Source: Magnolia sinica
Taxonomy: Eukaryota > Streptophyta > Magnoliopsida > Magnoliales > Magnoliaceae
Direction of reading: 5' to 3'
Length of the DNA: 64,000 nucleotides
NCBI RefSeq assembly: GCF_029962835.1
Contig: NC_080588.1
Location: 68,044,501 to 68,108,500, forward strand
The first letter of the stretch is position 1. Each line of letters begins with the position of its first letter. The translations under genes and the position numbers were made by a program. The notes beneath the pieces were generated by a model. That model ran no database searches, was not told the origin of the DNA, and was given only the letters and a program-made list of their open reading frames with translations. Positions 3-61,390 of this stretch are shown here, piece by piece.

Positions 3-2126
3 GTAAACCCAGAAACAGAATTCCTCAAGAATTCGAATCCGGCTGATGGATCGCCTCGATGCGTATTGGAAATACCGATTTTGGGTGTAGATTCGGATAA
101 TAGTAGTAGTAGTAGTAGTAGTAGTGTTAGTAGTAATGGCAGCGGAAGCGGCTGTAATGAATCGTCGGTCTCGGAGTCGAATGGATTGCAATGGAGAAAT
201 TTTATGAATGTTTTGAGGAAGAAATCGATAAGACGGCTTTCGACGTTTCCGTTGCCGGGTTCAGAGCTGTCGAGGAGGAATTTGAGCAGGAAACTGGGTC
301 AAATTCGAAACGGAGAAGATGGAGTAGAAGGCGGTGGAGAGGCGGTCGTTCCGAAGCCGTCGTGGAGGAGCTTCGATTATGAAGAGCTTGTGACTGCTAC
401 TGATAATTTCAGTTCTGGTGAGAGGATTTTCTCTGTTTCTGGTTTTTCTCTGTTTTTTTCCTCTGTTTTTGCTGCGTTCTTTCATGTTTGAATAGTATGT
501 GGTGGTGACCGAAATGCAGTACCTGAAACAGCCAGGTCTGTGGGGCCCACCAAGTTGGATATGTAAAATCAATCCGTCTATCAGGTTCTATCATCAATTT
601 TTGGCCTTGTGTTTAAAAATCATCTAGAACCACAACTCAGTTGGGCCACACCAAATGAAAAAATGGGGATGAGATGCCAACCATAGGTTCTTTGTGCGGG
701 GCTACCATCGTCTGTATGTTTGATCGAATCCGTTAATAAGGTGTGACTCAATAGGATGAATAGAATATACAAAACTATGGCAGACTCAGGTGGGCCACAC
801 CGTGCCGACTTACATGTTTTGGGTCCAATATTAAGTGTAGCCTGTATGAGTTTTTAATTGGTCTTATCATGTGTATGTACGGTCCAAATAATGGTTCTCA
901 CCTGATGGACGGAGTGGATTTTTCATATTGTGGGCCAAACCAGATGAAGAGAAGATACAAAAACTGTACAGGACTCAGGTGGGCCACACCATGTGAAGTT
1001 GGCGGTTCCGCAAGCAATATTAAGTGTGACCCGTATGAGTTTTCAATTGTCGTTATCTTCTACATATACGGTCCAAATAAGGTTATCACCTGATGGACGG
1101 AGAAGATTTCACAGGCACAACATGGTGGATCCACAGACCTTGGGTTCTCACGCGCTATGTAAAAACAGGTGATGGCCCGTGGACGCGGATTGCCTCCTCA
1201 CGCTGGCTACTGGACGGTCCGCTGTAGGCCCCTCATGATGTATTTGTCATATCCACCCCGTCCATCCATTTTCCCAGATTGTTTTAGGGTATAAAACAAA
1301 AAAAAAAAGAAAAAAAAAAAAGGAGGTAGATCTAAATCTCATGTGAACCACACGAAAGGAAAAAAGTAGATATTGAAAGCCCCCCTTTAAAAACTTCCAG
1401 GGCCACAAAAGTTTAGGATGAAGCTTAGTTTAGGATGAAGCTTATATTTGTGTTTTCCCTTCATCCAGTACTGTGTAACATAATCGACAGGTTGAATAGC
1501 AAATAAACATTACTATGTGCCCTGGTAAGTTTTAAATTGTGGAAGTCTTATCACCACTGTTTTCTTGAGATTTGGATATATATATATATATATATATGGA
1601 AAAGGTACTATGCGCTCGTCCCATGAGGTTGAGCTGTGTGGGCCCCACCGTGATGTGTTTCGAACATCTACCCCATCAGTCAGATGCACCATTCCATCGT
1701 GGGCCTAGGTCTCAAAAATCAAGTCAATCCATGACTTGTGTGGGCCACACTACATACAGAAGTGGGGAGGGGCCGTGCACCATTAAAACATTTGTAATCA
1801 ATTTTGGGCCCACCGAGATGTGGTTTGCAAATCCAGACCATCCATTATGTGTGTCCCACTTGGATGAGGGTTTAGACCAAGTTTCAGTAGCATTCAAAAC
1901 TCAGGTGGGCCCCACCAAGTTCTTTTATATGTTTTAACGGTGTCTTCCCATGATTTTAGGTATGGCCCACCTGAGTTCTATATACGGCTGATTTTTAGGA
2001 TATCCCATAATTTAGAGAGGACCCATCAAATGCACAATGTTGGTGGTTGACACGCATCACGGTGGGGCCCACACAGCTCGACCTCATGGGAGCTTATCGT
2101 AAGGTCGAGTGCATAGTACCTTTTCC

Positions 2127-2206
<80 letters not shown>

Positions 2207-2271
2207 GTGGGTCCCACAAATTCCCACCACTACGGAGCTTATCGTAAGGTCGAGTGCATAATACATTTTCC

Positions 2272-2322
<51 letters not shown>

Positions 2323-5300
2323 CGATCTCTTGCATACAATACTATAGCTGGGATTAAGCTGCATTGCGAGTGTTAAGAAAATGACTCTCTCCTACCCATG
2401 CTGACATAGATTAGCTACTGCCAAGTTGAGCAGGGAGTCTTAAGTGACGGTTACTAAGTTCTATGGGCCCACACCTTGATGTATTGGTTGTGTCCACACC
2501 GGCCATCCATTTTTAGAGATCATTTTAAGACGTGAGAAAAAAGATGAGTGGATTGAAAGCTGGAGCGAACCTATGGTTGCCATGGTATATAACACATACA
2601 TCATGGTGGGCCCACTGATCAATGTCGAGTAGCGACCAGGCTAGTTGCAGCGTCATTAAGCAATCAGAGTCCATGGCCCGTATAAGTTTTGTCCATTAAG
2701 TGGGCCACACTTGTTTTTGGGCCATTGAGAGATGCTTTTAGCTGTCTGTCCCTTTATCTGTCCCCATTAGAACGGCGAATGTTCAAACATTCCCCGTCTT
2801 TTCAGGGCATATACAGACCATGGCCGGCATGCTGAGTGACAAGCCTCGGATTGCACGGCACGCAAATTTGTCCAGAGTTTTTTAAATTTTGAGGGATTTT
2901 TTTTTCTACAAATAAAAATATTTTAAATATTTTAATAAAATACAAATAAATCTTTTTTAAAGTTTTTAATAAAATATATTTATAAAATCTAACTAATTCA
3001 ATCACAATTTACCGTCCACCTAGCCAATAACCCCAAACCTATGAACAACCCTTCGAGTTTGCGAGTAAAACCACGAGAATCATTGAGTGCAAAAGCCATC
3101 CCCATCCACCGATCAGGTGGGCCACAATACAGAGAATGATATCAAGCCGTTGGTAAATAGGAAAATACAAATGTACTTGGCTCAATAATCATAATTTCTT
3201 ATATTTACATAACAAACTCTATTTCTATTATTATTATTATTATTTGAAATTTTCATAATAATATAGCTATATGTATCATCTAATGTATTTTCGTCTCGTG
3301 TACATTTGAAATCTCGGCCGTATATCTCACAATGATGAGTGGGGCCACCTGATGAGCGGCCTGGATGTTAGGTGGGCCATATGGACGGAACAAATGTTTG
3401 ATGGCTGGAATCAGCGCTTACTTGTGGTCCACTTGATGAGAGTACTGGTCTATTTTGTCAGGCGAGCTGCATCGTGGGCCCAAATTTTGGACGGCTTGGA
3501 TGGATGCTTTTGGTATGTTTGAGAGAGACGTGTGGATCCATCAGTGTGTGTCTGGAGTGGTGGACGTTCCTCTTTTAAAATAGGAAAGTTGAGGGAACTT
3601 CTGTTGTAAAGAATAAATTATGGGTGTGGATTAGTTGAAGCAAATCCTCAATTGGGAAATGGAACCCCATTCGATCTGAGCCACTCATCAGGTGTGCCCC
3701 CTCTTCCAGATCCATGATACTACAGTTCAGTCCAGTCCACTCATCTGGTGGGCCTCACATGCATGCTGAATGACGACTATCCTCAATTTCTTTTAAAACA
3801 AAATGATGACCACTTGGGCTGGTCTGATCAGTGCTAGGCCCAGTTCACTTTCTGCCTGGTTGTGTTAATGGTCTGGATTTAAGCTAGAGGCCTTCCAAAG
3901 GCCCAGACTTGAAGCCCATACCGACCCAACTCTTTTGGGCTCTCGATCACAGTATTTTGAAAGTGGACCCCACTGGCCTTCTCTCAGTATATATGGGCTT
4001 GGGCCCATGTACAACAGGCCGAGCCCGCCCGCGTGAGGTCCATGACAGCCCTTCAAGGGCCATGATGATTATTCATAGCCTGAATTCAGATGGGCCACTC
4101 ATTTTTGTGCATGATCTGGTCTGTTCATTAGGTGTACCCTATCATTCATGATATATGATGAAAATATCCTTGAAAACCCAAATGGGCCTAGTGGGCCAGG
4201 TTGATGGAGATTCCTCTAATTTATCATTTTTCGTCGGATTGCAGAGAAATTGATAGGAAAGGGTGGCCATGCAGAGGTTTATAAAGGATGCCTGCCTGAT
4301 GGGCAGCTTGTGGCAGTGAAGAGGCTAACAAAGAGAAAGACAGAGGACGAGATTATAGCTGATTTCCTAACTGAACTCGGCATAATCGCACACATCGATC
4401 ACCCCAACGTGGCCCGCTTGATCGGTTTCGGGGTTGATGGAGGTTTGCACCTTGTTCTCCGGTTCTCCCCACATGGAAGCCTAGCTTCCATGCTCCATGG
4501 TAATCTTCTTGTAGCATTTCCTTTTTAATGTTATAAAACTCGAGAAGATCCTGACTCGGTTCCCTTGTCAAGTGAGTCTGGGTTGACTCGATGACTCAGT
4601 TGAGTCACTTAATAAAAGTTGTGTTGGGGACGATCAGAGCCGTTCATTCATCACAAAGGTTTCATAAATGAATCATGGCCAAGAATCACAATGACCAGAT
4701 AATCTTAAACATGTGAAAAATGCCTTCCAACCACAACTCGTTGCCAAATTTTCGGGATTTGTACAGCATTTTAAAGGGGAATGATCACTTGGGTCTGATT
4801 GTCTTGGCCTCATTGTGGTGTATATGTGTCATCCAACCCGTCCATTATATGAGTTCATAAATTCTATATCTAACCCAAAAAATTCACCTTGATCCATAAC
4901 TCAAGTGGGCCACACTAAAGGGAACAATCATGGACATTGAGTATGGGTACACACCATAGAAACTTCCAGATGGAATGTTGGGTTTGTGGCATTGTTTATA
5001 TGCCATCCAACCCATTAATCAGATGAATCCCAACAAGATAAAAAGAAAAAAAAAACTCAGGTGGGCCCCACCAGGTGAAGATATAGGTTTTACCCGTAAT
5101 GGTACCTTGCTTTCAAGTGATGTATCCCACATGAGTTTTGGATGAAGATGATTCTTAGCTTGCTTGATGAACATGAATAGATTCACGGTTTGGATTCCAC
5201 ATACCCATCACAGATTGGCCCCACACAGCTCAAACATATGCTAATTACCCTACATAATCACGCATCTGATCATTCCCCTTCTTTAAATAGTAAAGATTAT

Positions 5301-6061
5301 CCAACACTGTTAATCCATGGTTGTCCCCAGCGGATGAATGGTTCAGTTCACCACAAACAAATGTGACATTGGTGTTTACATCCAGGCCGTCCATTCAGCG
5401 TCCCACGTCTTGGACGGTCTATTTCCCGAAATCCATACCGATCAAGCATAACTTAAAAATCCGATCGGTAGCCTTCATTGAAAATAACTTCAGTTATTCA
5501 GGTTCAAAGGACGGTCTGGATTGGGCTATCCGATTCAAGGTAGCGGTCGGAGTAGCGGAAGGATTGTTATATCTTCATCAGGGCTGTCGTAGACGCGTAA
5601 TTCATAGAGATATCAAAGCATCCAACATACTACTCACTGATGATTATGAACCACAGGTGAGAAGAGTTACCTTGGGTCCATGTTCTGTTTTTGTAGGCTG
5701 CGTTTGGATGCCCAACTGAATTGAATTGTAATAATTAGTTCAATGGAGTGGAAGTGACCGAATCATAATCACTTAGGTAATATATACATCTCTTTTTAGT
5801 TGGACATGAAAGGAATGTAACCGTGATTGGGATGTAGCATTTCTTGATTGAACTGGATGTTTGAAATTCAATTCAATTGTACATCCAAACGGGCCTCTAA
5901 AAGAATAGAAACGTGTAGCGGAATGTTGTTTTTTTGGTGGTGCAGATATCAGATTTCGGACTAGCGAAATGGCTCCCCAACCAATGGAGTCACCACATTG
6001 TGTTCCCCATCGAAGGCACATTTGGGTGAGATATGTCTTTACGTCCTCCGATGTATTGTTT

Positions 6062-6131
<70 letters not shown>

Positions 6132-7554
6132 AAAAGGTACTATGCGCTCGACCTCACGAGTCCGTCCCATGAGGTCGAGTTGTGTGGGCCCCACCGTGAT
6201 GCGTTTCGAACATATACCCCATCAGTCAGATGCACCATTCCATTGTGGGTCTAGGTCTCAAAAATAAGTCAATCCGTGACTTGTGTGGGCCACACCACAT
6301 ACAAAAGTGGAGAGGGGCCGGGCACCATTAAAACATTCATAATCATTTTTTGGGCCCACCGAGATGTGGTTTGAAAATCCAGCCCATCCATTATGTGTGT
6401 CCCACTTGGATGAGGGTTCAGACCAAGTTTCAAACGCATGCAAATTTCAGGTGGGCCCCACCAAGTGCTTTTATATGTTTTAATGGTGTCTTCACATGAT
6501 TTTAGATGGTATAGCCCACCTGAGTTCCGTATACGGCTGATTTTTGGGATATCTCATAATTTAGAGGGAACCCATCAAATGCACGATGTTGATGGTCGAC
6601 ACGCATCACGATAGGGCCCACACAACTTGACCTCACGGGAGCTTATCGTGAAGTCGAGCGCATAGTATCTTTTCCATATATATATATATGGGAAAAGGTT
6701 CTCTCCGGTCGAGCTCATGGGAACTTCCATGAGGTCGAGCTGTGTGGGCCCCACCGTGATGCATGTCAAACATCTACCCCATCAGTCAAATGCACCATTC
6801 CATGGTAGGCCTAGGGCTTAAAAATCAAGTCAATCTGTGACTTGTGTGTGCCACACCACATACAAAAGCTGATAGGGGCTACCCTCCATTAAAACATTCA
6901 TAATCATTTTTTGGGCCTACCGAGATGTGGTTCACAAATCCAGCCCATCCATTATGTGTGTCCCACTTGGATGAGGGGTCAGAGCAAGTTTCAGATGCAT
7001 CCAAATTTCAGGTGGGCCCCACTAGGTGCTTTTATATGTTTTAGGCATGTCTTAACATGATTTTAGATGCTATAGCCCACCTGAGTTCCGTATACATCTG
7101 AATTTTGGGATATCCCATAATTTAAAGGGGACCCATCAAATGCATGGTGTTGATGTTCGACACACATCACGATGGGGCCCACGCAGATCGGCCTCATGAG
7201 AAGTTCCCACGAGCTAGACCACATAGAACCTTTATATATATATAGACACACACACACACGCACGCGTGTCACCTGTGCATTAGTTCTCGTGATAATGTTT
7301 TGAGAACTCATCACATATAATGTGAGCCCAAAATTTGAACAGTCCCAATGAAACCACAAGGTCTAACTTCTACCTGATTCAACTTTAGTGGCCTATAGCA
7401 AAAGAAAACAGTTTCTTTCCTTGATTTGTATCCATTTGCGATAGCCCGCTAGAATTTTGGATCAGGGTGAAAATTGATTCCTCAGAGTTTCATGGGTACC
7501 ACATCACATAGACCATTCAAATTGTGCAAAGGTGTGCACATGCGCAGGTGAGCA

Positions 7555-7597
<43 letters not shown>

Positions 7598-7798
7598 ATA
7601 GGGGCATGCTCTCCTACGGACCTATGCACATGTGTAGACCGTAAGATACTTATATATCAATGACACACCACACACGTCAACTTTAGATCAAAACTTTGTG
7701 CATATAAAAGAAAGTTCTCGTTGATATCATGTTTTCGAGAACTCATCTACATAATGTGAGTCCCAAAATTTGAGAGTCCCCAATGTAAGACCATCCAT

Positions 7799-7852
<54 letters not shown>

Positions 7853-9069
7853 AAAAGGATATGAGCACAATTTATTAATGTGCAGATATTTGGCACCTGA
7901 ATACTTCATGCATGGGATCGTAGATGAAAAAACAGATGTTTTCGCATTTGGGGTGTTGCTGTTAGAGCTCATAACGGGTCGTCGAGCCGTTGATGCTTCT
8001 CGCCAGAGCCTCGTCATGTGGGTGAGATTCGCCGATGCTCGAGCTATGGCCTATGGAGACATTTCTAATACTCATGTGACCATGGCACGCATGTATTAGA
8101 TCTCAACTGATCATTTTGGGAGGCCCCACTGTGGAAGTGACCTGATTAAAAAAAAAAAATCAGATTGGTCGATTTGCATAGAAAATAACAGTCTAGGAAT
8201 ATTAACTAGATCAAACACAATGAGTTAGGATTGCTGCGACATCTAAAGTGGGGCTTCCCCCAATGAATGGCTTAGATCTTATATACATATGTATGTTTAC
8301 GTGTGCCCCACATGTAGGAACGCATCTAGCGTTCGGCAACAAACTGGCTGACTAGTTGGCATACAGGCCAAGCCGCTGCTCGACGCAAACAAGGCCCAAG
8401 AACTAGTGGATCCTTGCTTAGGAGATGCACACGACCCGGTCGAAATGAGACGTGCCATGTCCGTCGCTTCCATGTGCATTCACCACCTATCATCCATGCG
8501 ACCACACATGAATCAGGTAAGGAATCATAACCACTAAAAACCCATGATCAAACGACATGAACATGTGTACCATGGTTGGATGACTCATTTAAGTCGAGTG
8601 CGACTCATCCGAGTTGACTCGAACTGGATCGAGACTAGTTCAGTTTGGTACCATGACTCCTAGGCTGGGGTGACTCAGCTAACTCATCCGAGTCTATGTG
8701 AGTTGGGGTGACTCAGTCCATGTCAGTCCCACACGACTCGGCTTTACTATAATTCTTTTCTTTAGATTTTAATGTGTGTATGTTTCACATGCTTGCACAA
8801 GTATCCATTTCTATCGACGGCTTTCGGGCGGCCACATAGGCCTGATTTTCGAATCTAAAATGGTTGATGATCATGTGGGATGGTGGGCCTGATGGGTGCA
8901 GGTGGTGAAGCTTCTCAGAGGGGAGAATGGTCGAGGAGAAGTGAAGGGAAGAGAGCACAGACCCAATGTTTTAAAGTCATTTCTCTTTGATGCTTGTGAC
9001 TTGGACGACTATACATGCTCTAGATATCTCAGTGATCTCAATCGACATAGGAAGCTTGCTTTGGAATAG
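3..9069 (+). CDS. Receptor-like cytoplasmic kinase, RLCK-VI / ROP-binding kinase type (5' partial)
   Basis: Seven exons join in one frame: 3-417, 4245-4499, 5502-5656, 5946-6025, 7886-8021, 8367-8516 and 8902-9069 (TAG). All introns are GT..AG, and 452 codons are visible. Numbering from nt 3: a Ser-rich stretch encoded by an (AGT)n run near 102-125, a basic segment ([14 protein letters not shown]), then the kinase with glycine loop [11 protein letters not shown] (143-153), catalytic Lys164 in [12 protein letters not shown] (258-265), DFGLAK (278-283) and APEY (305-308). All catalytic residues are present, so an active Ser/Thr kinase is expected. The kinase and the basic N-terminal segment fit RLCK class VI, some members of which bind ROP GTPases and act in the cytoplasm; ROP binding is inferred. 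The frame is open to the window edge and no ATG precedes the conserved [12 protein letters not shown] segment, so the start lies upstream. Introns 1 and 4 are swollen by repeats. Confidence 0.95.
784..1110 (+). repeat. Imperfect 189-bp tandem duplication in RLCK intron 1
   Basis: Two direct copies begin with ACTCAGGTGGGCCACACC at 784 and 973. Each continues through a shared stretch ending near CACCTGATGGACGGAG. The copies have diverged and have no coding potential. Around them (540-780 and 1180-1560) are degraded pieces of the common MITE core. Confidence 0.6.
1598..2126 (+). mobile_element. TA-microsatellite-associated MITE, copy 1 (RLCK intron 1)
   Basis: A 529-bp element with terminal inverted repeats. 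The left end reads GGAAAAGGTACTATGCGCTC and the right end is its complement, GAGTGCATAGTACCTTTTCC. The inverted homology continues inward through the GTGGGCCCCACCGTGATG block. It is bounded by (TA)n on the left (1576-1597) and on the right (2132-2202). No coding capacity is seen. Copies 2 to 4 and two fragments lie elsewhere in the window. Confidence 0.85.
2132..2319 (+). repeat. Two (TA)n runs enclosing a truncated copy of the same MITE
   Basis: A (TA)n run of about 71 bp (2132-2202) is followed by only the last ~70 bp of the MITE (2203-2271, ending ATACATTTTCC), then by a second (TA)n run (about 2277-2318). The fragment has lost its left end and body but keeps the TA-bounded right end. Confidence 0.75.
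2320..4244 (+). other. RLCK intron 1, distal part
   Basis: No gene is seen. A short, internally deleted copy of the common MITE core lies at about 2458-2620, with CCACACCTTGATGTAT at one end and ATACATCATGGTGGGC at the other. The rest is AT-rich sequence with scattered GTGGGCC-type fragments, and it ends at the splice acceptor before 4245. Confidence 0.5.
4500..5501 (+). other. RLCK intron 2 with repeat fragments
   Basis: No exon is seen. A GACTCGG/GAGTC-rich patch lies at about 4545-4612, and degraded MITE-core sequence lies at about 4790-5260. The donor is G|GTAATC at 4500 and the acceptor ends at 5501. Confidence 0.5.
6130..6675 (+). mobile_element. TA-microsatellite-associated MITE, copy 2 (RLCK intron 4)
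   Basis: About 546 bp. The left end GGAAAAGGTACTATGCGCTC is joined to a (TA)n run at 6064-6128. The right end GCGCATAGTATCTTTTCC is joined to a short TA run (6676-6689) shared with the next copy. It is clearly homologous to copy 1 along its whole length. Confidence 0.85.
6690..7230 (+). mobile_element. TA-microsatellite-associated MITE, copy 3, head-to-tail with copy 2
   Basis: It begins GGGAAAAGGTTCTCTCCGG directly after the TA run that ends copy 2, and it ends near ACATAGAACCTTTATATATA. The ends are more diverged than in copies 1 and 2, but the interior is collinear with them. A TA run follows (7234-7244). Confidence 0.8.
7245..7885 (+). repeat. Remainder of RLCK intron 4: repeated segment, (CT)n and (TA)n
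   Basis: A ~75-bp segment around TGTTTTGAGAACTCATC (7275-7360) recurs in direct orientation at about 7705-7790. Between the copies is a (CT)n run (7559-7593). A (TA)n run (7799-7848) precedes the acceptor at 7885. No exon is seen. Confidence 0.6.
8576..8755 (+). repeat. GACTC/GAGTC-rich repeat patch (RLCK intron 6)
   Basis: A cluster of GACTCATCCGAGT, GACTCGAACT and GACTCAG motifs. Similar patches occur at 4545-4612, 20510-20660, 24660-24850 and 39108-39590. It lacks coding potential, and no clear element ends were found. Confidence 0.5.
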
Positions 9070-24860: not shown

Positions 24861-25332
24861 GTAGATTGGGGCTGATGGCATATCCCCTAAACAACCAAAT
24901 TCACATGCCTCATGAAAGGGGCCTAAGCCCTATGCAATATTTTCATCTTATAAACTCAAAATTTTTAGTTTAATTATTCGATGTAGAATTAAACCCATAC
25001 TATTATAAGACAAAATGCATTTATTGCTTTGTTAAAAAATTTAAAGAATTTATTTATTTTAAAACACACACACACACAAAAAAAATGAAATAATAATAAA
25101 TTTGGTCTAAATTATATGACTTTGATCTTATTTTATCCCAATTGACTTGAATTGAGCCCGGTTCAAAAATGAGTTAGCTCTTTTTTTTGTTAAATAAATA
25201 ATATAAACATTTTTATACAAAGATAATACCACAAGATAACATTGAAAAAAGACAAGAAGATTAAAGCTCAAGTGGACCAAATCACAAGAAAAAGTGAAAC
25301 ATTGTGCATTCATGTGTGTGTGTATATATATA

Positions 25333-25813
25333 GGCCCCACCGTGATGCATGTCTAACATCTATCCCATCGGTCAGATGCACCATTCCATGATGGGCCTAG
25401 GGCTTAAAAATCAAGTCAATCCGTGACTTGTGCGGGCCACACCACATGCAAAATTTGACAGGAGTTACCCTCCATTAAAAAATCCATAATCATTTGTTGG
25501 GCCCATTGAGATGTGGTTCACAAATTTAGCCCATCCATTAAGTGTGTCCCACTTGGATGAGGGGTTAAACCAAGTTTCAAACACATCCAAATTTCAGGTG
25601 AGCCCCACCAACTGCTTTTATATATTTTAGGCATGTCTTCACATGATTTTAGATGGTATGGCTCACCTGAGTTCTATGTACGGCTTATTTTTATGATATC
25701 CCATAATTTAAAGGGGACTCATCAAATGCACCCTATTAATGTTCGACATATATTATAGTGGGGCCCACACAACTCAACCTCATTGGAAGTTCCATGAGCT
25801 CGACTGCATGGAA

Positions 25814-25815
<2 letters not shown>
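25333..25815 (+). mobile_element. TA-microsatellite-associated MITE, copy 4 (left end truncated)
   Basis: Starts abruptly at GGCCCCACCGTGATGCATG right after a short TA run, so the outer left repeat is missing. The interior is collinear with copies 1 to 3. The right end passes into a (TA)n run at 25817-25884. Confidence 0.8.
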
Positions 25816-25884
<69 letters not shown>

Positions 25885-25887
<3 letters not shown>

Positions 25888-39277: not shown

Positions 39278-39340
<63 letters not shown>

Positions 39341-40211
39341 AATAGTACTATAAGGTCGACCTCAAAACAAAGCAGTTGACCAGGCAAGTGACTCGTTCGA
39401 GTCATGACAAGTTGCATCGAGTCAACCAGGTTTATGAGACAACCACAACAAGTCTTGTCCCGACTCAACCAAGTCATGCTCAAAAGCGAGTTTCCAAGGG
39501 ACTCAATTGGAAATCTCGTCAAGACGGGTTGACTCAGCCAAGTTTTGAGTCGAGTCGCCGAATTTTAGAACTATGGTTGAATTCAGGTTTTTGAACTGTG
39601 ATCGTTACCAAAGCAAAACCACCATGATAGCATGATTATATTTTGAGTGTGTGAGGCTTTTATTCTTCTTCTTTTTTCTAATTCCAAAGCCTTTCAATGC
39701 TTCCAATATTGATTTGAATTAAACAAAAAATTCCAGCAACAAATTCCACATTTCCATTGTTAAAATAGGGGAATCATGCAATATGCATGGCCAGTATCGT
39801 AATGTGCATGGGTCGTCAATTACAGGATGCCCCATCCACAATGACCGCCAAGATCAGGGCCTAGATTGACGTGCGTGCATGCAAGCAATGTGTGAATAGA
39901 TGTATCGCCACCATCTAAGGTGGAAAATACACAAAAGTAATCGAAACCCAGTGAAATTTGAAGCTTGGGAACAGCTTACCTCCAGAAATCTCGACATGGA
40001 TTGCAAAGTATATCTGATTTTCTGCTAAACCACCTGCAACCAGCAAAGCAAGCAAATGTATTTCTTTTTACAATGCAACAAAAAGGAGAGGGAGTTACCA
40101 TTATTGATCGAATTTCATATACAACAAACCCTTTGAAAACACTTTTTGACTCCCAGAATGATACACTCAGGTTGGGTGTGAAATCAAAGATGGAAGGAGT
40201 TTTATTCCATG
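38364..40211 (+). repeat. Convergent intergenic region with (TA)n, a lone MITE end and GACTC repeats
   Basis: This lies between the 3' ends of the CER2-like and FBPase genes. It holds a degraded CTCGGCTC-rich patch (39108-39260), a (TA)n run (39282-39336), a lone left end of the TA-associated MITE (39337-39366, TGGAAATAGTACTATAAGG) and a GACTC/GAGTC-rich patch to about 39590. No other gene is seen. Confidence 0.6.
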
Positions 40212-43200
40212 TCAGACTTCATATCCAGGATTTATCTTCTGTTGAATTTCGCCGTAGCTTTCTAACTCTTCCATGTCCTGCAAACTCCCCAGGAATAAAG
40301 GAAGCCTTTGATGCAGCTCGACCGGTTGCATCGAAAGAATCCTAATTTTACCATCAGACCCCCTACCCCCGGCTTGCTCCACTAGAAAACTGAGAGGATT
40401 CGCCTCGTAGACTATGCGCAGATGGTCTCTCGGATTCATTACCACCCCACCATAGATAAGAGTTCGATGGAAATCAGCAACAAGCGAACAGATATATCGA
40501 GCAGAGTACTTCTTAGGGAGCTGCCCTTTACCTTGTCTAACAGTATCAATGTAACGCCTCAAACCATCAGGCCAATCGAAATACCGTGCATCATTTACGG
40601 AATAGATTTGTCCTGACAGTGACATAAAAGGCATTGGCATAAATGAGTTTGTTGGATCCATTTAAGGGAACAGAATACTAATGTTTGGAACATACTGTAA
40701 ATTCTCTCTGCTGCTCCGCAGGTGAATCTTCAGTCATATAAGATCTATCCATGTGGGTACAGGGCTGCAACTTGGGTTCAGATCAACCCGAACCTGATGG
40801 GCAGGTAGTTGAAATTCCATTCGAAAATAGGAGGACAGCAGCGTGTTATAGATTTTTTTAATTTAGAAACTACCTTTTTTTCCTTCTTTTTTTTCCGAAA
40901 CAAATGGGTGTTCTTCTTTCCTTAAAATGGTCAACACACATGCTTATTTTTCCAACACTTCCTTGAATCATGTGAAATATGAGATGAATATTATATAAAT
41001 AACGTTAAAGAAATCAATGACTTTCTATTCTCACAAGAGTTTCAACATGAGGTCGTGGGTTCGAGCACCCATTGTGGTGTGAGTGCACGGGCATTCGTGG
41101 GGTGTGTGAGTGCATTTGACATGAGGTTGTGGGTTCAAGCACCCATTTTGGTGTGAGTGCGCGGGCATGTGTGGGGCGTGTGAGTGCATGTGATAAAATA
41201 AAAAATAATAATAAATAAATGAATTTCTATTCTCCTTGATTCTCCAACTATTAATTCTATTTCTTTGATTTTTTATTTTTTTAACACACGCACCCGACAC
41301 ACACACCCACACATGCCGTAGTGGGATTTCACCACCTATGGGTATCGAACCCAAGACCTCTTGTTGAAACTATTAATTCTATTTAGATGTAAACCATAAT
41401 CAAGAATATTTTAGTAAGAGTGATTAATTATAGGGATTTTCTCCTCATTGCTGGGATCGATGAAATCGAACCAATTTCGATATCATCGATAATTGTCGGG
41501 ACTTTTCACCGCTGGTCACTGGACAATTTTGGTCCTATTTCGATATCATCAAAGGACCTTAAATGATATCGAAGGCTGTCATCGAGAGACCTTCGATGAC
41601 ATCGATAATTGTAGGAATTTTTCACCCCTGGTTGCTGGACAGTTTTGGTCCTATTTCGATATCATCGAAAGACCTTAAATGATATCGAAGGTTGTCATCG
41701 AGAGACCTTCGATATCATCGAAGAGTTACGCAGTTGCGATTGCAGAAACGCAGATTCTGCGAAAATTGTTTCTTATTTTGATTCTACCTCCTTCTATTCT
41801 TATATAAATGGGTGTATGCGGGATTAGGGTGTATTCCAGGGTATTCTAAAGTTTCCTAAAGGTTTTCTAGGAGGACTTAAGGCTATCAAAGGTGAGGGAG
41901 AGAGAGAGAAAGAGAGAGAGGAAGCTTGTGGAAGGGAGATTCTGCTCGTAGAGGTAATCTACTTCGCAGTCCACGTCTCAGCGCTTCTACGTCCTCGTGA
42001 TCGGTGAGATCCCTCTGTTTTTCCATTATTCTCTTATTGTTCATCCACTCCTGCACGAGTGAAGAAAGTTTGATCCAAGCGATGTGTGCTTGTGATCGGT
42101 TGTAACGTTCTGCTTTATAGTAGATTGTTGATCTGAACGAGGTCCCGTGGTTTTTACCTCTTTGATGGTTTTCCACATAAAATTCTCTAATGTCGTGTGG
42201 TTTATGCTTTGATTTATTTCATTGCTTAATTATCTCATAATTCTGGTTTGTTTTGGGAGGCTAGATCCTAAGGTTTTGGTGTAAGGCCCCCAATAAAGTG
42301 GTATTAGAGCTAAGTTCATTGAACAGAGTAGGATCAGTTTTGAATTATGGAAGGTAGCTCATCAAGGATGATCAGCCTCAATGATTCTAACTGGACCATA
42401 TGGAAGGCTAAGATGGAGAACTTGCTTTATTGCAAGGAATTATATTCTCAAATTTTAGGCATATCAGCAAAATCCAAGGATATGTCTGAAGATGATTGGA
42501 AGAAGATGGACCGAAAGGCGGTGGGATTTATTAGACAATAGTTGGACGATTCCGTATTCCACTATGTGTCTACGGAGACCTCAGCCACTAGCCTATGGCT
42601 GAAATTGGAAGGGTTGAATGAGAGGAAGACAGTCGGTAATAAAATCTTCCTGATAAGATGACTTGTGTATCTCAAGTTCAAATATGGTGGTTTTGTGGCC
42701 GAGCACATGAATGAGGTCAGCAATATAGTGAACCAGCTCTCCGATATGAAGATGGTCCTAGATAATGAATTGCAGGCTTTGCTATTGCTTAGTTCATTGC
42801 CTGACAATTGGAAGACATTAGTGGTGTCTTTAAGTAATTCCTCGCCAGACGGAAAGATATCCATGGAACAGGTAACCAGTTGTCTCTTTAATGAGGAGAC
42901 AATGAGGAAGTCTCAGGAGTCTACTCAGCAAGAGGCCCTTGTGACACAGGAACAGGGGAGAGGAAAGAATAGGAAGGGCAGGAAGGCCCGAAATAAATCA
43001 AGAGGCAAGTCGAGTACCAAGAAGGATGTTGAATGCTAGAATTGTGACAAGAAAGGCCACTACAAGCATGAATATCGTGGTAAGAAGAACGATAAGAAAG
43101 GAAAAGGAAAGGAGAAGGAAGATGAATCAGATTCCACTGTAGTCGCTTCAAATGACGACATTGTAGTTATTCTTTCAGCAGATCACGATGTATGTCTCAC

Positions 43201-46200
43201 GGCTACGAGTTAGGACACTGACTAAGTGATAGACTTGGGAGCCTCGTTTCATGCGACTCCACGCAAGAACTTCTTCACAAGCTACAAGTTAGGTGACTAT
43301 GAAACCGTAAAGATGGAAAATTCTAGCGCATTGAAGATTGTAAGGGTCGGTGATATTTGTGTGAAGACTGATGTGGGCTGCACATTGGTTCTCAGGGATG
43401 TGAGGCATATTGCAGACCTTTGCCTCAACTTGATGTCGACGGGAAGGTTGGATGATGATGACTATGAAAGTCGGTTTGCTGGTGGGTGCTGGAAACTCAT
43501 CAAGGATTCGTTGATCGTGGCCAGAGGAAAAAAGTGTTGCACCATTTATAAGGCAAGTGTCAATGTGTTCAAGGGTGGGTTGAACGTAGCGGAAAATTCA
43601 GCTATTGACAAGTGGCACAGGCGTCTAGGTCACATGAGTGAAAAAGGGTTTCAACTACTAGCGAGGAAGCGGCTCATTCTAAGCGTGACAGGTACACCTC
43701 TCAAAACCTTTCTTAATTGTTTATCAGGAAAACAGCATAGAGTTTCATTCGTTAAAACTGTTTCTCATGTTAATAAAGTGCATGTATTAGATTTGGTTTA
43801 TTCTGATGTCTATGGTCCTATGAGGACAAAAACCTTAGGTAGGGCATTGTATTTTGTCACTTTTATAAATGATGCATCTAGAAGAGTTTGGGTTTATGCT
43901 TTGAAATCCAAGGATGAGGTCTTTCGTGTGTTTAAATTGTTTCATGCTATGGTCGAGAGAGAGACAAGTAGATCAATAAAGTGCATTCGCACTGATAATG
44001 GTGGTGAATACATTGGCGACTTTCATGAGTATTATAAGTCCCTCGGTATACGGCATGAACAGACAGTTCCCAAGAGCCCCCAGCATAATGGTGTGATTGA
44101 GCGAATGAATCGCACCATTACAGAGAGAATCAGATGCATGTTGTTCCATGCGAAGTTGCCCAACACGTTCTGGGGAGAAGCAATGCACACAACAGTGTAT
44201 TTGATAAATAGGTCTCCATCAACCCCATTGTATGGAGAAGTATCTGAGAAGGTGTGGACTGAACAGGATCCATCGTACAGTCATCTCAGATGTTTGGATG
44301 CAGGGCATCCGTTCACGTACCCAAGGACGAGAGGTCCAAGCTCGATATGAAGATCATGCAGTATGTGTTCTTGGGGTACGATGATGAAAAATTCGGTTAC
44401 AGATTATGGGATCCGACCGAGAGGAAGCTCGTCAGGAGCAGAAATGTGATTTTCTTTGAAGATCAGTGTATAGAAGACATTGATAAGCCAGAGAAGAACC
44501 AGCCTAGTTCAGGTGAACTAGAGGACATAGATCCGATTATTTCTCCGGTGGTGTCTGATGACGAGGGAGTACAGAAAGGTGTAGAGGACGAGGGAGTTCC
44601 TATGGAAGATGGACTGGGGGAACAACCCCCACTTGATCCACCTATTGAACCACAGGTGAGAAGGTCATCTAGGGACAGACAGCCGTCCAAGAGGAACTCG
44701 CCGTATGAGTACATTATGCTCATTGATGGAGGAGAGCCAGAAGATTATTCTGATGCCCTAGCTGACGAGCCTAAGGGGAAGTAGTTGAAAGCTATGCAAG
44801 ATGAGACGAAATCCTTACATAAGAATCATACATATGATATTGTGAAATTGCCTAAGGGCAAGAAAGCTTTGAGTAATAAGTGGGTGTTTAGAAAGAAGGT
44901 TGAGCAGAAGAATTCACAGACGAGGTTCAAGGCCAGACTTGTAGTGAAAGGGTTTGGTCAGAGGAAAGAAATAGACTTCGAGAAGATATTTTCACCAGTG
45001 GTGAAGATGACATCCATACGAGTGTTACTTGGGTTGGTGGCTAGCATGTATCTAGAGATAAAGCAGTTAGATGTTAAAATTGTCTTTCTCCATGGTGACC
45101 TGAAAGAAGAGATCTATATGCACCAACCAAAGGGGTTCGAAGTTAAAGGCAAAAAGCATATGGTGTGTAGGCTGAGGAAGAGCTTGTACGGGTTGAAACA
45201 AGCTCCACGGCAATGGTACAAGAAGTTCGACTCTTTTATGTTGAAGCATGGGTATGACAGAATGGAGTCAGACCACTGTGTGTTCACGCGTACGTTCTCA
45301 GATGACGATTTCTTAGTTCTGCTGCTATACGTTGATGACATGCTCACATGAAAAAAGACATCAAGAAAATCGACAGGCTAAAACAGTTGGGCAAGTCGTT
45401 TGTGATGAAAGACTTGGGTCTGGCTAAACAAATCCTAGGAATGAAGATAACCCGTGACAGAAGCAGCAAGAAACTTTGGCTATCACAAGAGCGGTATATT
45501 GAGAAAGTCCTAGAGCGGTTGAATATGAATGCAATGAAGCCGGTTAGTACAACACTAGATGGTCACTTCAGATTGAGCGATAGGCAGTGTCCTAAGACGG
45601 AGGCAGAGGTGGAAGAGATACAAAAGATACCCTACGCGTCAGCAGTAAGAAGTTTGATGTATGTTATGATATGTATACGCCCAAACATAGCATATGCGGT
45701 TGATATTGTCAGCCGGTATCTTGTCAATCCTGGCAAAGAACATTGGACAGCGATGAAGTGGATACTACGGTATCCAAGAGGCTCATCCAGGTTAAGTCTA
45801 TACTATGGTGACAGAAAACCTATGTTAGAGGTTACACAAATGCAGATATGGCAGGCGACATAGACTCTAGGAAGTCTACATCGGGGTTCATGTTCACGTT
45901 TGCAGGGGGCTGTTTTTTGGCAAAGCAAGCTATAGAAGGTCGTAGCATTGTCGACGACAGAGGCCGAGTACATTGCAGTCACAGAAGCATGTAAAGAGAT
46001 GCTTTGGATGAAGAGGTTCCTACAAGAACTTAGCCTAAAGTAGGAGCAGTACGTAGTGTATTGTGATAATCAAAGTGTTATACACTTGAGCAAGAATCTA
46101 AGTCAGCACTCCAAGTCGAAGCACATAGAGCTTTGGTATCAATGGATCAGGAATACTTTGGAACAGAAGGTGTTACAGCTTGAGAAGGTCCACACGAACG

Positions 46201-49200
46201 ATAATGCGTCAGACATGATGATCAAGGCTTTACTCAATGGCAAGTTTGAAGTTTGTAGAAACCAGACTGGCTTGAAAAAAAATGAATTCCTCCTGAGTCG
46301 AAAAGGGGGAGATTTGATAAGGATTTTCTCCTCATTGCTGGGTACGATGAAATCGAACCAGTTTCGATATCATCGATAACTGTCGGGACTTTTCATCGCT
46401 GGTCGCTTGACAGTTTTGGTCCTGTTTTGACATCATCGAAGGACCTTAGATGATATCAAAGGCTATCATCGAGAGACCTTCGATGACATCGATAATTGTA
46501 GGAATTTTTCACCCCTGATCGCTGGACAGCTTTGGTCCTGTTTCGATATCATCGAAGGACCTTAGATGATTTCGAAGGCTGTCATCGAGAGACCTTCGAT
46601 ATCATCGAAGAGTTACGCAGATGCGCTTGCGGAAATACAGATTCTGTGGAAATTGTTTCCTATTTTGATTTTACCTCTTTATATTCTTATATAAAGGGTG
46701 TATGCGGGATTGGGGTGTATTCCAGAGTATTCTAAGGTTTCCTAAAAGTTTTCTAGGACTTAGGGCTATCAAAGGTGAGAGAGAGAGAGAAAGAAAGAAA
46801 GAGAGAGGAAGCTTGTGGAAGGGAGATTCTGCTTATAGAGGTGATCTACTTCGCAGTCCACGTCTCAGCGCCTCTACATCCTCGTGATCGGTGAGATCCC
46901 TCTGTTTTTCCATTATTCCCTTATTGTTCATCCACTCCTGCGTGAGTAAAGAATGTTTGATCCAAGCGGCGTGTGCTTGTGATCGGTTGTAACGTTCTGC
47001 TTTATAATGGATTGTTGATCTAGACGAGGTCCCGTGATTTTTACCTCTTTGAGGGTTTTCCGCGTAAATTTCTTTGGTGTCGTGTGGTTTATGCTTTGAT
47101 TTATTTCATTGCTTAATTATCCCATAATTCTGGTTTGTTCTGAGAGGCTAGATCCTAAGATTTTGGTGCAAGGCCCCCAACAATTAATGCACCTCGGTGG
47201 TCAGCTAGTAACTGTCCACCCCCAGCACACATGCCAACGTTACATGCTTACAAAATCCAAGCCATGCAAAAGGTGGCCCCCGCCATGAAGATGCATGGCA
47301 CCAATGGGAGGAGGCATTCTACTCATCAACCATGCCACACCTTAGGAAAACAATGGCAATTTAAATCAGACCTGCCAATGGTCTGATTCAATGTGCGCAT
47401 GTTGTCCACCTGATGACAGGACTGGCCCGATTTTTGTGCATGATGATCATGGTGAAATCATAATCTACAGCTTTTATTAGCAACCATATGTTTCTCCCAA
47501 AAGACCAACAAGAATGTGACCAATCAATCCAACCATACATGGTATTGGGGATTTTAGAACGAAAAAAAAAATACCTCGAGGTGGAATCGTTATGTGGGGA
47601 TGTGTCAGAACAAAGTCACCAGTTGAATGGTCCAATGTAAATGCATGCGTTCCAGAACCAAAGCTGACGCAGAATATGGTGGCAGATGAGTAAAGAACAT
47701 AGCCAGCAGCAACAAGCCTCTGCCCACTTTGGAGTGAATTTAGTAGTGCCTTCTCTTCGATGGGTAGATGATCCAATTCCACAAGCCGGTTATAGATGCC
47801 AAATATTGTCCCGGTTGGAATAGAGGCATCAATATTTCGAGAACCGTCTAGAGGATCAGTGACCACGACAAAAGGACCATCGTCAGCTATCCAAACTGGG
47901 ACAGGGTCTTCTTCCGAAGCCATGACTGAAACTTTGCCAGAACTACGGAGGGAGGACAGGATGATGTCATTCTGCATAATCAGAGAGTTCTTCTGTTCAG
48001 AAACATAACCTTCATTTTCTTTTCACTCATTTTTAATTGTAATTCTTACGTGTGAAACTGTGCATTACAGGGGCAGGTTCTCTAATGAACCTTAGTATGC
48101 GACTCACGAGAAGCAAGAGCCCCACACATGCCATGCAGCATGCATGTTCAAGATCCAGGCAGTTCATCAGGTGCGCCCTGCCAGGGATTTTCCATGGTCC
48201 AAAGTCATGGTGGTGTGGTCATTGGCTGGGACATGTGCATGTCATATATGGACTTTTGGTCGATTCTTTTGAGATGTTCATCCTTTTACATGAGTGGTCA
48301 CCAGACGGTTGTACAAGCCTGATTTTGGGGCCACTGCAAATGCAAACCAGAGCCTACCTGATGAATGATCCTACACACATGTATCACATGATTACGTGTG
48401 GCATATCTTACTCACATGAGGGTATGCATGCCGGCGACTAGAAACAAATTGCTAACTGAAATCTAGAACAGCTCATACTTAAACATTTTGGGTCCATAAC
48501 CAACTTTTGGAAACTTCGCAGACCTTTTTTCATTTTTAGAAAGATCGTCTGCACTCTTATTAGGGCCAAAGGCAGGCATAAAAGAAAACAGAAACCAAAG
48601 GAAAGAAAAACTAAACAACTAGAAAGGAACAAAACAAAACAGAAAACAAAAGAAAACAGACGACAAATGACCACCCCGATTCACCAGCCCCAAAAATACA
48701 ACAAGCTCAGCCCTCCCAATCAGCATTGCATATGAAAACCCGATTAAGAACACCACCCACCGTACTGACGCTATAAGAACCAGATTAATTACCATATGAG
48801 GTTGTATAGAGACTAGAAATTATCAGCTTGATCCAAAACATTTGTGGCCCCAAGAAGTTTTTAATGGTGGGCGTTCAATCAATATTGTGCGGTCCACTTG
48901 AGATTTAGATCAACCTCATTTTTGGGCTCATAGCATAAAATGATCTGGAAGAATGGGTGGACGGCATGGATGAAACACATACAAAATGCTTCTCTACCAA
49001 ACAACAACTGCCAAATTTGCTAGGGCTGCAACTTGGGTTCGGGTCAAATTAAGTTCTGAGTTTTGAGTCGAGTCTATGAGTTTTAGAACTATGCCATGGA
49101 TGAGCTAACTCAATGTAGTGAATAGTAGCAAAAGCGCATCGTAAGATTGAGAATTTATAGAAATTCGAATTCCCTCCCATCACAAGCAGAAATCAAATGA

Positions 49201-60559: not shown

Positions 60560-60964
60560 CCAAGTACTAGAATAAATTTCAGCATATGAATTTCAATATA
60601 AGAACAATTTTCGGTGAGGGATGAATATGGACGAGGACGAAGATGGGGAATGGATTTTAGTCAAGTGACCATAGAAATTGAGGCATTGGAGGCCATTCTC
60701 TGCACATATGTATATCATACATTCATCCATGCATGCATACATAATTATGAAGACATAAATTTTTTTAATTAAACATTTTTTTCATAAATTTTAAAACTTC
60801 AAAATTTATTTTTTATTAAAAAATGCAAAAAATCACTCGTCGATATCCATCCATAAAAAGAAAACATTAATAAGTTTTGCATGAAACAATATGATTATTT
60901 TTTAAAATAAAACTTTTTTTTCATTTTTGAAATTTTAAATATTCAAAAATTGAAGAGTGGTCGA

Positions 60965-61390
60965 AATCCACTAAACTAGATCCCCAAAACATTTTTTATT
61001 TTTTATTTTTTCCTTAGATTTACTCACGTTGGCCCCATTTCCCAATTTTTCTCATGGATTGAGGGATTTGATTCACAAAATTAGAAGAGGAATGGTAGAA
61101 ATCTGCTCCCTAACTAAAATCCACTAAACTAGATCCCCAAAACATTTTTTATTTTTTATTTTTTCCTTAGATTTACTCACGTTGGCCCCATTTCCCAATT
61201 TTTCTCATGGATTGAGGGATTTGATTCACAAAATTAGAAGAGGAATGGTAGAAATCTGCTCCCTAACTAAAATCCACTAAACTAGATCCCCAAAACATTT
61301 TTTATTTTTTATTTTTTCCTTAGATTTACTCACGTTGGCCCCATTTCCCAATTTTTCTCATGGATTGAGGGATTTGATTCACAAAATTAG
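60965..61390 (+). repeat. 153-bp tandem repeat, about 2.8 copies
   Basis: Units begin AATCCACTAAACTAGATCCC at 60965, 61118 and 61271. The third stops at ACAAAATTAG (61390). The copies appear identical over long stretches, indicating recent amplification or conversion. They have no coding potential. Confidence 0.88.

Follow-up and report, generated by a model that had tools for sequence, protein, structure and literature searches.

The sequence analysed here, a 64-kb window on contig C16 of the Magnolia sinica assembly, contains coding pieces of a protein-kinase gene, a copia-type LTR element with rve and RVT_2 domains, and a perfect tandem repeat (Table 1). The two LTRs of the copia-type element are about 90% identical, and each carries an internal tandem of about 116 bp. 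The window also holds six related sequences, designated c1 to c4, f5 and f6, that belong to one inverted-repeat element. Of these, c1, c2 and c3 all lie between coding stretches of the protein-kinase gene, c1 between two of them.

Table 1. Coordinates of the features in the 64-kb window (forward numbering; TA, alternating TA run)
Feature	Position	Strand	Description
TA, (TA)11	1576-1597		At the 5' end of c1
c1	1598-2126	+	Full length, both termini present, third terminal G missing (BLAST, alignment)
TA, 71 bp	2132-2202		Between c1 and f5, after the TTATT junction
f5	2201-2271	+	Fragment, 3' end alone
TA, 42 bp	2277-2318		After f5
Kinase gene piece	4241-4501		PK_Tyr_Ser-Thr (Pfam)
Kinase gene piece	5501-5655		Judged by eye
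Kinase gene piece	5940-6027		Judged by eye
TA, 65 bp	6064-6128		At the 5' end of c2
c2	6129-6675	+	Full length, GGGAAAAGG...CTTTTCC, foldback over the entire length
TA linker, 14 bp	6676-6689		Joins c2 to c3
c3	6690-7230	+	Diverged, related subfamily (GGGAAAAGGTTCTCTCC...), without the last few bases
TA, 12 bp	7233-7244		After c3, followed by a (CA)n stretch
Repeat family X	7245-7797		Window member of the family
X-related stretch	7381-7571	-	69.7%; next module of the array after c3
Kinase gene piece	7875-8087		PK_Tyr_Ser-Thr (Pfam)
TA, 10 bp	25323-25332		At the truncated left side of c4; (TG)n before the run
c4	25333-25815	+	Left end short by about 57 bp; last bases missing on the right
TA, 69 bp	25817-25885		Right of c4
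TA, 55 bp	39282-39336		Ahead of f6
f6	39337-39366	+	Fragment, about 30 bp of the 5' end (GGAAATAGTACTATAAGG)
Copia-type LTR element	41401-46805		rve and RVT_2 domains
TTATATAAAT	41800-41809	+	In a copia-type LTR; MITE-free counterpart of the TATA-box site occupied in L021
Tandem repeat	60964-61390		Perfect, 153-bp unit, 2.8 copies

A preliminary description of this DNA had reported four long copies and two fragments of one miniature inverted-repeat transposable element (MITE), each abutting TA runs, and a BLAST search together with a list of TA runs found all six sequences in place and next to such runs. The four long copies, whose pairwise identity is about 80–88% (BLAST), are not equally complete, however: both termini are kept by c1 and c2 only, while c3 and c4 are truncated. 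Likewise, both fragments exist, but f5 is probably a duplicate of the c1 3' end plus flank and not an independent insertion, since in the alignment it has the private variants of c1 and the same TTATTTA junction. No stop-to-stop frame of at least 130 codons overlaps the window copies. Eleven of the twelve copy ends lie in, or at most 6 bp from, a TA run 10 bp or longer, although such positions make up only 0.98% of the window; when the ends were placed at random in 200,000 trials, never more than four fell at TA runs.

To describe the element we built a majority sequence from 42 full-length copies (c1, c2 and 40 fetched from elsewhere in the genome). It measures 547 bp from GG to CC, or 549 bp when a third G and C are counted at the termini, which read GGGAAAAGG...CCTTTTCCC. 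The mean K2P divergence of the 42 copies from it is 4.6% (range 1.5–10%). The terminal inverted repeats are about 83 bp long and identical at 75 of 83 positions, as counted from the alignment, and the entire element folds back (67% palindrome over 568 columns, fold z = -13.4), in agreement with its first identification as an inverted-repeat MITE. For c2, the inverted self-alignment gave 65.6% over 575 columns and the DNA fold z = -13.4.

Next we searched the whole 1.84-Gb assembly (127 contigs) with the 20-bp end of the element. Allowing up to three mismatches, this gave 8,436 matches compared with 31 for the reversed pattern, and 2,438 matches were exact. Flanks were tabulated on the reverse strand, where no site occurs twice among the matches listed, as the forward counts duplicate gap placements. 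(TA)4 was found at most 3 bases from 916 of the 1,222 exact reverse-strand ends (75%), and our own count of the first 100 exact ends on contig C1 placed 75 of them in the TA list. The association with TA microsatellites thus holds genome-wide. The claim that the family sits only against (TA)n was slightly too strong, as about 7% of the exact reverse-strand ends (88) adjoin (TG)4, five adjoin (CA)4, and for a small minority of ends the surroundings are ordinary AT-rich DNA. Beside GGG, flanks breaking the two-base period were rare (26 + 29, set against the 2,438 exact GG ends as total, which is not a GGG count), whereas half of the GGG ends would be expected to have them in ordinary DNA; two adjacent G/C at positions -5/-4 occurred at nine ends. 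Viral contigs scanned for the element core gave no matches.

The same picture emerged from individual loci. Among 68 distinct exact ends in the fetched regions L001-L049, 55 were followed outward by TA, nine by CA and none by TG, and four by neither. We further compared both sides of 40 full copies, which came from the first 45 fetched of 68 places on C1 (grouped from 100 listed ends). TA flanked 25 of them on both sides, and 11 had TA at one end with CA/TG at the opposite end; the rest had CA on one side only (two copies, which are segmental duplicates of one another), TA on one side only (one copy) or neither (one copy).

Copies that lack a microsatellite reveal how the element inserts. Forty loci chosen for period-breaking flanks (20 of the 26 and 20 of the 29) were tested together with other copies, and ten distinct copies proved to have no dinucleotide run on either side; an eleventh row was left out of the count on account of mis-pairing within L007. 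A 9-bp duplication was perfect in six of the ten, had one mismatch in one and two mismatches in another, and was absent from two, while perfect duplications of 5–8 or 10–12 bp occurred in none. The six perfect duplications, located directly outside GGG/CCC, are AAGTATCTA, ATAATATAA, ATATTTATC, TAGTTAAAA, TTTCAAGTA and CATATGATG; the copy with ATATTTATC has A in place of the adjoining terminal G. Insertion at ordinary AT-rich sites evidently leaves a 9-bp target duplication. These copies also bear on the origin of the TA runs. The preliminary description had offered, as an alternative, that TA-rich ends of the element seed the microsatellites, but the ends read GGGAAAAGG... and the six copies stand clean against their duplications with no TA run. 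That the runs belong to the element ends and are carried along when it moves would account for TA on both sides of 25 of the 40 copies; given the same six clean copies, and TA lengths on the two sides that are unrelated (rho -0.04), we regard this as extremely unlikely.

For copies flanked by TA runs, a duplication cannot be read directly, and we therefore used the parity of the run. Slippage proceeds in two-base steps, so that the parity of a duplication survives inside a TA run: the bases flanking the element are identical (T/T or A/A) after an odd duplication and differ when the duplication is even or missing. We examined 61 distinct full-length copies from the exact-end lists on C1 and from the window, none picked for register or irregular flanks, the last 20 of them taken partly from the list of ends touching TA. 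Thirty-seven had intact GGG/CCC termini, and their junction bases were T/T in 17, A/A in 17 and included a C in three, with no case of T/A or A/T. Thirty-six of these had an alternating run on both sides, and all 36 were in the odd register; shuffling the left/right pairing 100,000 times gave a mean of 18 and a maximum of 32 out of 36. A stricter run length (at least 8) gave 33 odd to 2 even among the intact copies, both even ones having a one-base irregularity near the junction. Where a terminal G or C was changed, the class into which c1 falls, the ratio was 18 odd to 6 even (18 to 5 under the stricter length). Of 80 copies, among them 20 loci chosen for irregular flanks, 56 were odd and 12 even, and the remaining 12 lacked a run on one side or both. 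These results demonstrate that the microsatellite-flanked copies carry an odd-length duplication too, and they therefore appear to have entered by the same staggered cut as the clean-flank copies.

The register also bears on the classification of the element. Tc1/mariner (Stowaway) elements insert with a 2-bp TA duplication, which yields an even register. A Stowaway-like MITE of this group would naturally adjoin TA, as the element does, but not one of the 36 copies was even and the clean-flank copies show 9 bp, so that a Tc1/mariner-type duplication is excluded. Mutator-like elements (MULEs), on the other hand, are characterised by target site duplications of 8–11 bp and long terminal inverted repeats. 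Both are found here, the former as 9 bp in six of ten clean-flank copies and as the consistently odd register, the latter as repeats of about 83 bp. The family is a non-autonomous MULE foldback MITE of about 549 bp.

A further asymmetry was seen in the dinucleotide next to the element. At the GGG end, (TG)4 occurred at 88 sites and (CA)4 at only five on the reverse strand, and the corresponding forward counts were 100 and 8, with some sites counted twice. Transitions from TA to TG and from TG to TA were about equally frequent in the sampled sequence (14 and 12 as 12-mers). A CA/TG target that existed beforehand would give both arrays equally. CA arrays were often positioned between the element and the TA run. 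This would be explained most simply if a T adjoining the terminal G supplied, together with it, a TG unit that expanded later. As judged by the (TG)n bias, flanking arrays can grow in place.

The (TG)n bias and the register both bear on the proposal made for the SaTar elements of guayule, by which homologous recombination of a circular intermediate with microsatellite filler would place the element without any target duplication. The asymmetric flanks of 11 of the 40 copies (TA opposite CA/TG) resemble those in guayule (PMC5907723, in the parts compared here). Such asymmetry is, however, accounted for by growth of (TG)n next to GGG, and the odd register of 36 out of 36 copies is what a 9-bp duplication predicts, whereas recombination gives no reason for it to be odd. 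Since the register is odd in all 36 of these intact copies, a special recombination route is unnecessary for the M. sinica family, and we consider it very unlikely.

Empty sites bear on whether the TA tract is the target of insertion or its product. The copy in L021 sits in a copia-type LTR, and those in L020, L041 and L042 occupy the same position in the LTR family; all four, inserted at the LTR TATA-box site, have long TA. With the joined flanks of L021 as query, 38 other places were found that span both flanks without the element. In 20 of these, and in the two LTRs of the window, the longest TA run was 5–10 bp, although this sample is biased towards short runs, because a single match over both flanks cannot hold a long repeat. 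The typical sequence at these empty sites, CTATATATAT, looks like the TATA box of the LTR. A second query used the upstream flank alone; the best 40 of 536 candidates were scored and ranks 2–26 were taken. The resulting 25 LTR copies comprised 20 empty sites, three occupied by the same or a related element (L140, L145 and L146, the last two judged by eye), one lost (L141) and one ambiguous (L139).

The preliminary description had suggested a comparison with empty orthologous sites. In the comparison made here, with paralogues of one LTR family, the outcome was divided: 16 of the 20 empty sites had short TA (4–11 bp), but three (L130, L132 and L133) had no element and yet TA runs of 41, 58 and 76 bp at the TATA box, and the remaining one (L147) had 46 bp of (GT)n. 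Either LTR TATA boxes may become long microsatellites on their own, or L130, L132 and L133 may be sites that an element has left. (TG)n without an element was also observed at the LTR TATA-box site in L044:1112-1164.

For 25 copies in which TA extends 9 bp or more on each side, we also inferred the length of the original target (both sides minus 9), and obtained a median of 58. As a reference we took 48 TA tracts free of the element and no shorter than 9 bp, most of them from regions fetched for holding the element. Were each tract to be hit in proportion to how many 9-bp positions it offers, the expected median would be 49 (p = 0.13); compared with the same tracts unweighted, the difference was pronounced (p = 3e-6). 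More diverged copies did not have longer TA (rho -0.16, p 0.22, n = 61). The lengths fit insertion into existing TA tracts in proportion to their length.

These data have to be weighed against another course, in which the same 9-bp cut is made at short sites resembling TATATATAT, TATA boxes for instance, and the two (TA)4.5 seeds left behind grow later. We had at first taken this as the main reading and dropped it to a rival when the joined-flank sample proved biased and the upstream-flank set contained three long TA tracts in 20. It is consistent with the short TA at 16 of the 20 empty paralogues and, subject to that bias, at the 20 joined-flank places and the window LTRs; with the long TA of L020, L021, L041 and L042 at that same LTR site; with (TG)n growing in place at the GGG end; and with maize TAFT, for which short empty sites followed by expansion are described (PMC5907723, in the parts compared). 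The long TA tracts and the (GT)n at element-free LTRs speak against it, as does the absence of a rise of TA length with divergence, and growth is unneeded for the inferred target lengths. We hold it to be unlikely, though still to be reckoned with. Because three of 20 empty LTRs have long TA and the target lengths fit simple targeting, we provisionally favour targeting with later remodelling of the junctions. The broader idea that plant microsatellite-associated MULE MITEs mainly make microsatellites, through TATATATAT-like entry, two 9-bp seeds and a second, strand-oriented (TG)n array from the terminal G, has become doubtful in our judgement because of the upstream-flank sample and the length comparison. 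If true, it would make the TA register a general test for hidden target duplications.

The arrangement of neighbouring copies is also informative. The window contains a modular array, c2-TA-c3-TA/CA-X-(CT)17, within 6064-7593, and arrays joined by microsatellites were also found at L010, L017, L029, L033, L034 and L046. Arrays of the MITE joined by TA runs speak for entry into existing TA. The repeat family X in this array (TCATGCTCCCCTGCGCAC...) starts at TA/GA microsatellites and often adjoins the 549-bp MITE; besides the window, it was seen at L004:1601-2020, L038:2457-2848 and L040:1665-2039. Since X too lies at microsatellites, such boundaries are common to several families here.

Taken as a whole, the observations are probably best explained by a MULE MITE whose transposase prefers alternating TA, with targeting followed by remodelling. 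A MULE transposase acting in trans would move the element, and its strong preference for alternating TA would direct entry into existing tracts, from TATA-box-sized ones up to long microsatellites, with a frequency that scales roughly with tract length. The cut would leave a 9-bp target duplication, inside TA tracts as well, where it would persist as an odd duplication. After insertion, the flanks would be remodelled through two-base slippage, and the terminal G could form an expandable TG unit, giving (TG)n at the GGG end and (CA)n at the CCC end. The TA beside one copy may then accept further insertions, producing arrays such as that at 6064-7593. Some growth of TA after insertion is likely, yet it is unneeded for the observed lengths. 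As to a source of transposase, the PF10551 profile matched many MULEs, but among the best 150 of 1104 candidates none was seen by eye within a few kb of the 100 listed exact ends, which cover part of C1 only. The 5.6-kb span between two exact ends in L049 was considered as an autonomous partner and rejected, as it contains a tandem duplication and no transposase-like frame by eye. In this locus (C1:46751150-46756900) a stretch with the MITE end occurs twice, about 3.25 kb apart, and microsatellites may have mediated the duplication.

The comparison with known systems that follows is based on parts of the papers cited. The preliminary description had pointed to rice Micron and a possible Micron-like case in another lineage, and the M. 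sinica family is indeed of the same kind, with (TA)4 at most ends (916 of 1,222) and arrays joined by microsatellites, as in Micron and SaTar elements. Micron is likewise a MITE in (TA)n, reclassified as a MULE from its terminal repeats; it is 380 bp long compared with 549 bp here, and the two were compared by description only (PMC5907723, PMC12550479). According to a survey of 207 genomes, Micron is extensive in Poaceae and Rosaceae and elsewhere absent save in a few species (PMC12550479), and the M. sinica family thus puts the kind in a magnoliid, outside those families. The SaTars of guayule, rice, sorghum and citrus resemble it in being short, non-autonomous and of MULE type, and in having (TA)n or another microsatellite at their flanks; a minority lie in ordinary DNA and show 9–10 bp duplications, and modular arrays are formed via microsatellites (PMC5907723). 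Many of their microsatellite insertions were found inconsistent with cut-and-paste, and recombination was suggested, whereas the register shows an odd duplication in the microsatellite-flanked copies of M. sinica. Autonomous relatives were found for the SaTars (PMC5907723), but none for the M. sinica family in the search described above.

MuTAnT of Medicago truncatula is likewise a foldback MULE MITE in (TA)n with ends that start with a G run; 14 of its 218 copies lie outside perfect microsatellites and there have 9-nt duplications, and its empty sites hold nine TA repeats on average (PMC4486113). It differs in its end sequence, GGGGTTTGCTAGAACA, and in that an autonomous element is known (PMC4486113). 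Maize TAFT is also of MULE type and flanked by TA; its empty sites have 6–8 bp of TA, expanded after insertion to as much as (TA)50 on each side (PMC5907723), so that growth from a short seed is reported for TAFT while it is only a rival reading for M. sinica. The Ac-mMITEs of pineapple likewise have TA on one or both sides (about 74%) and 9/10-bp duplications in the others, and their (GA)n/(TC)n flanks were suggested to reflect slippage after insertion; they differ in number (21,994 full-length copies) and form a separate lineage (PMC8449440).

TA targeting, duplications of 9–10 bp, arrays and slippage have thus already been described across Micron, TAFT, MuTAnT, SaTars and mMITEs. Among the papers listed by our literature searches, none deals with a microsatellite-associated MITE in Magnolia, and the words 'mite', 'microsatellite' and 'mutator' do not occur in the main text of the M. 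sinica genome paper (PMC10999834). In the parts compared of the papers cited above, where Micron and TAFT are covered through secondary descriptions, no register test is reported. As far as this literature shows, three things are new here: a family of this kind in a magnoliid, the TA register as a test, and the strand bias seen in (TG)n arrays. The routes of entry proposed in the literature differ, being targeting, unspecified recombination or, in maize, insertion with subsequent expansion. Any assembled genome can be checked for the TA register, which uncovers target duplications concealed by the repeat, and (TG)n arrays, through their strand bias, offer a second trace that can be read, of later events at the junction. 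The M. sinica element is of a known kind, but gives an unusually clear clue to the mode of insertion.
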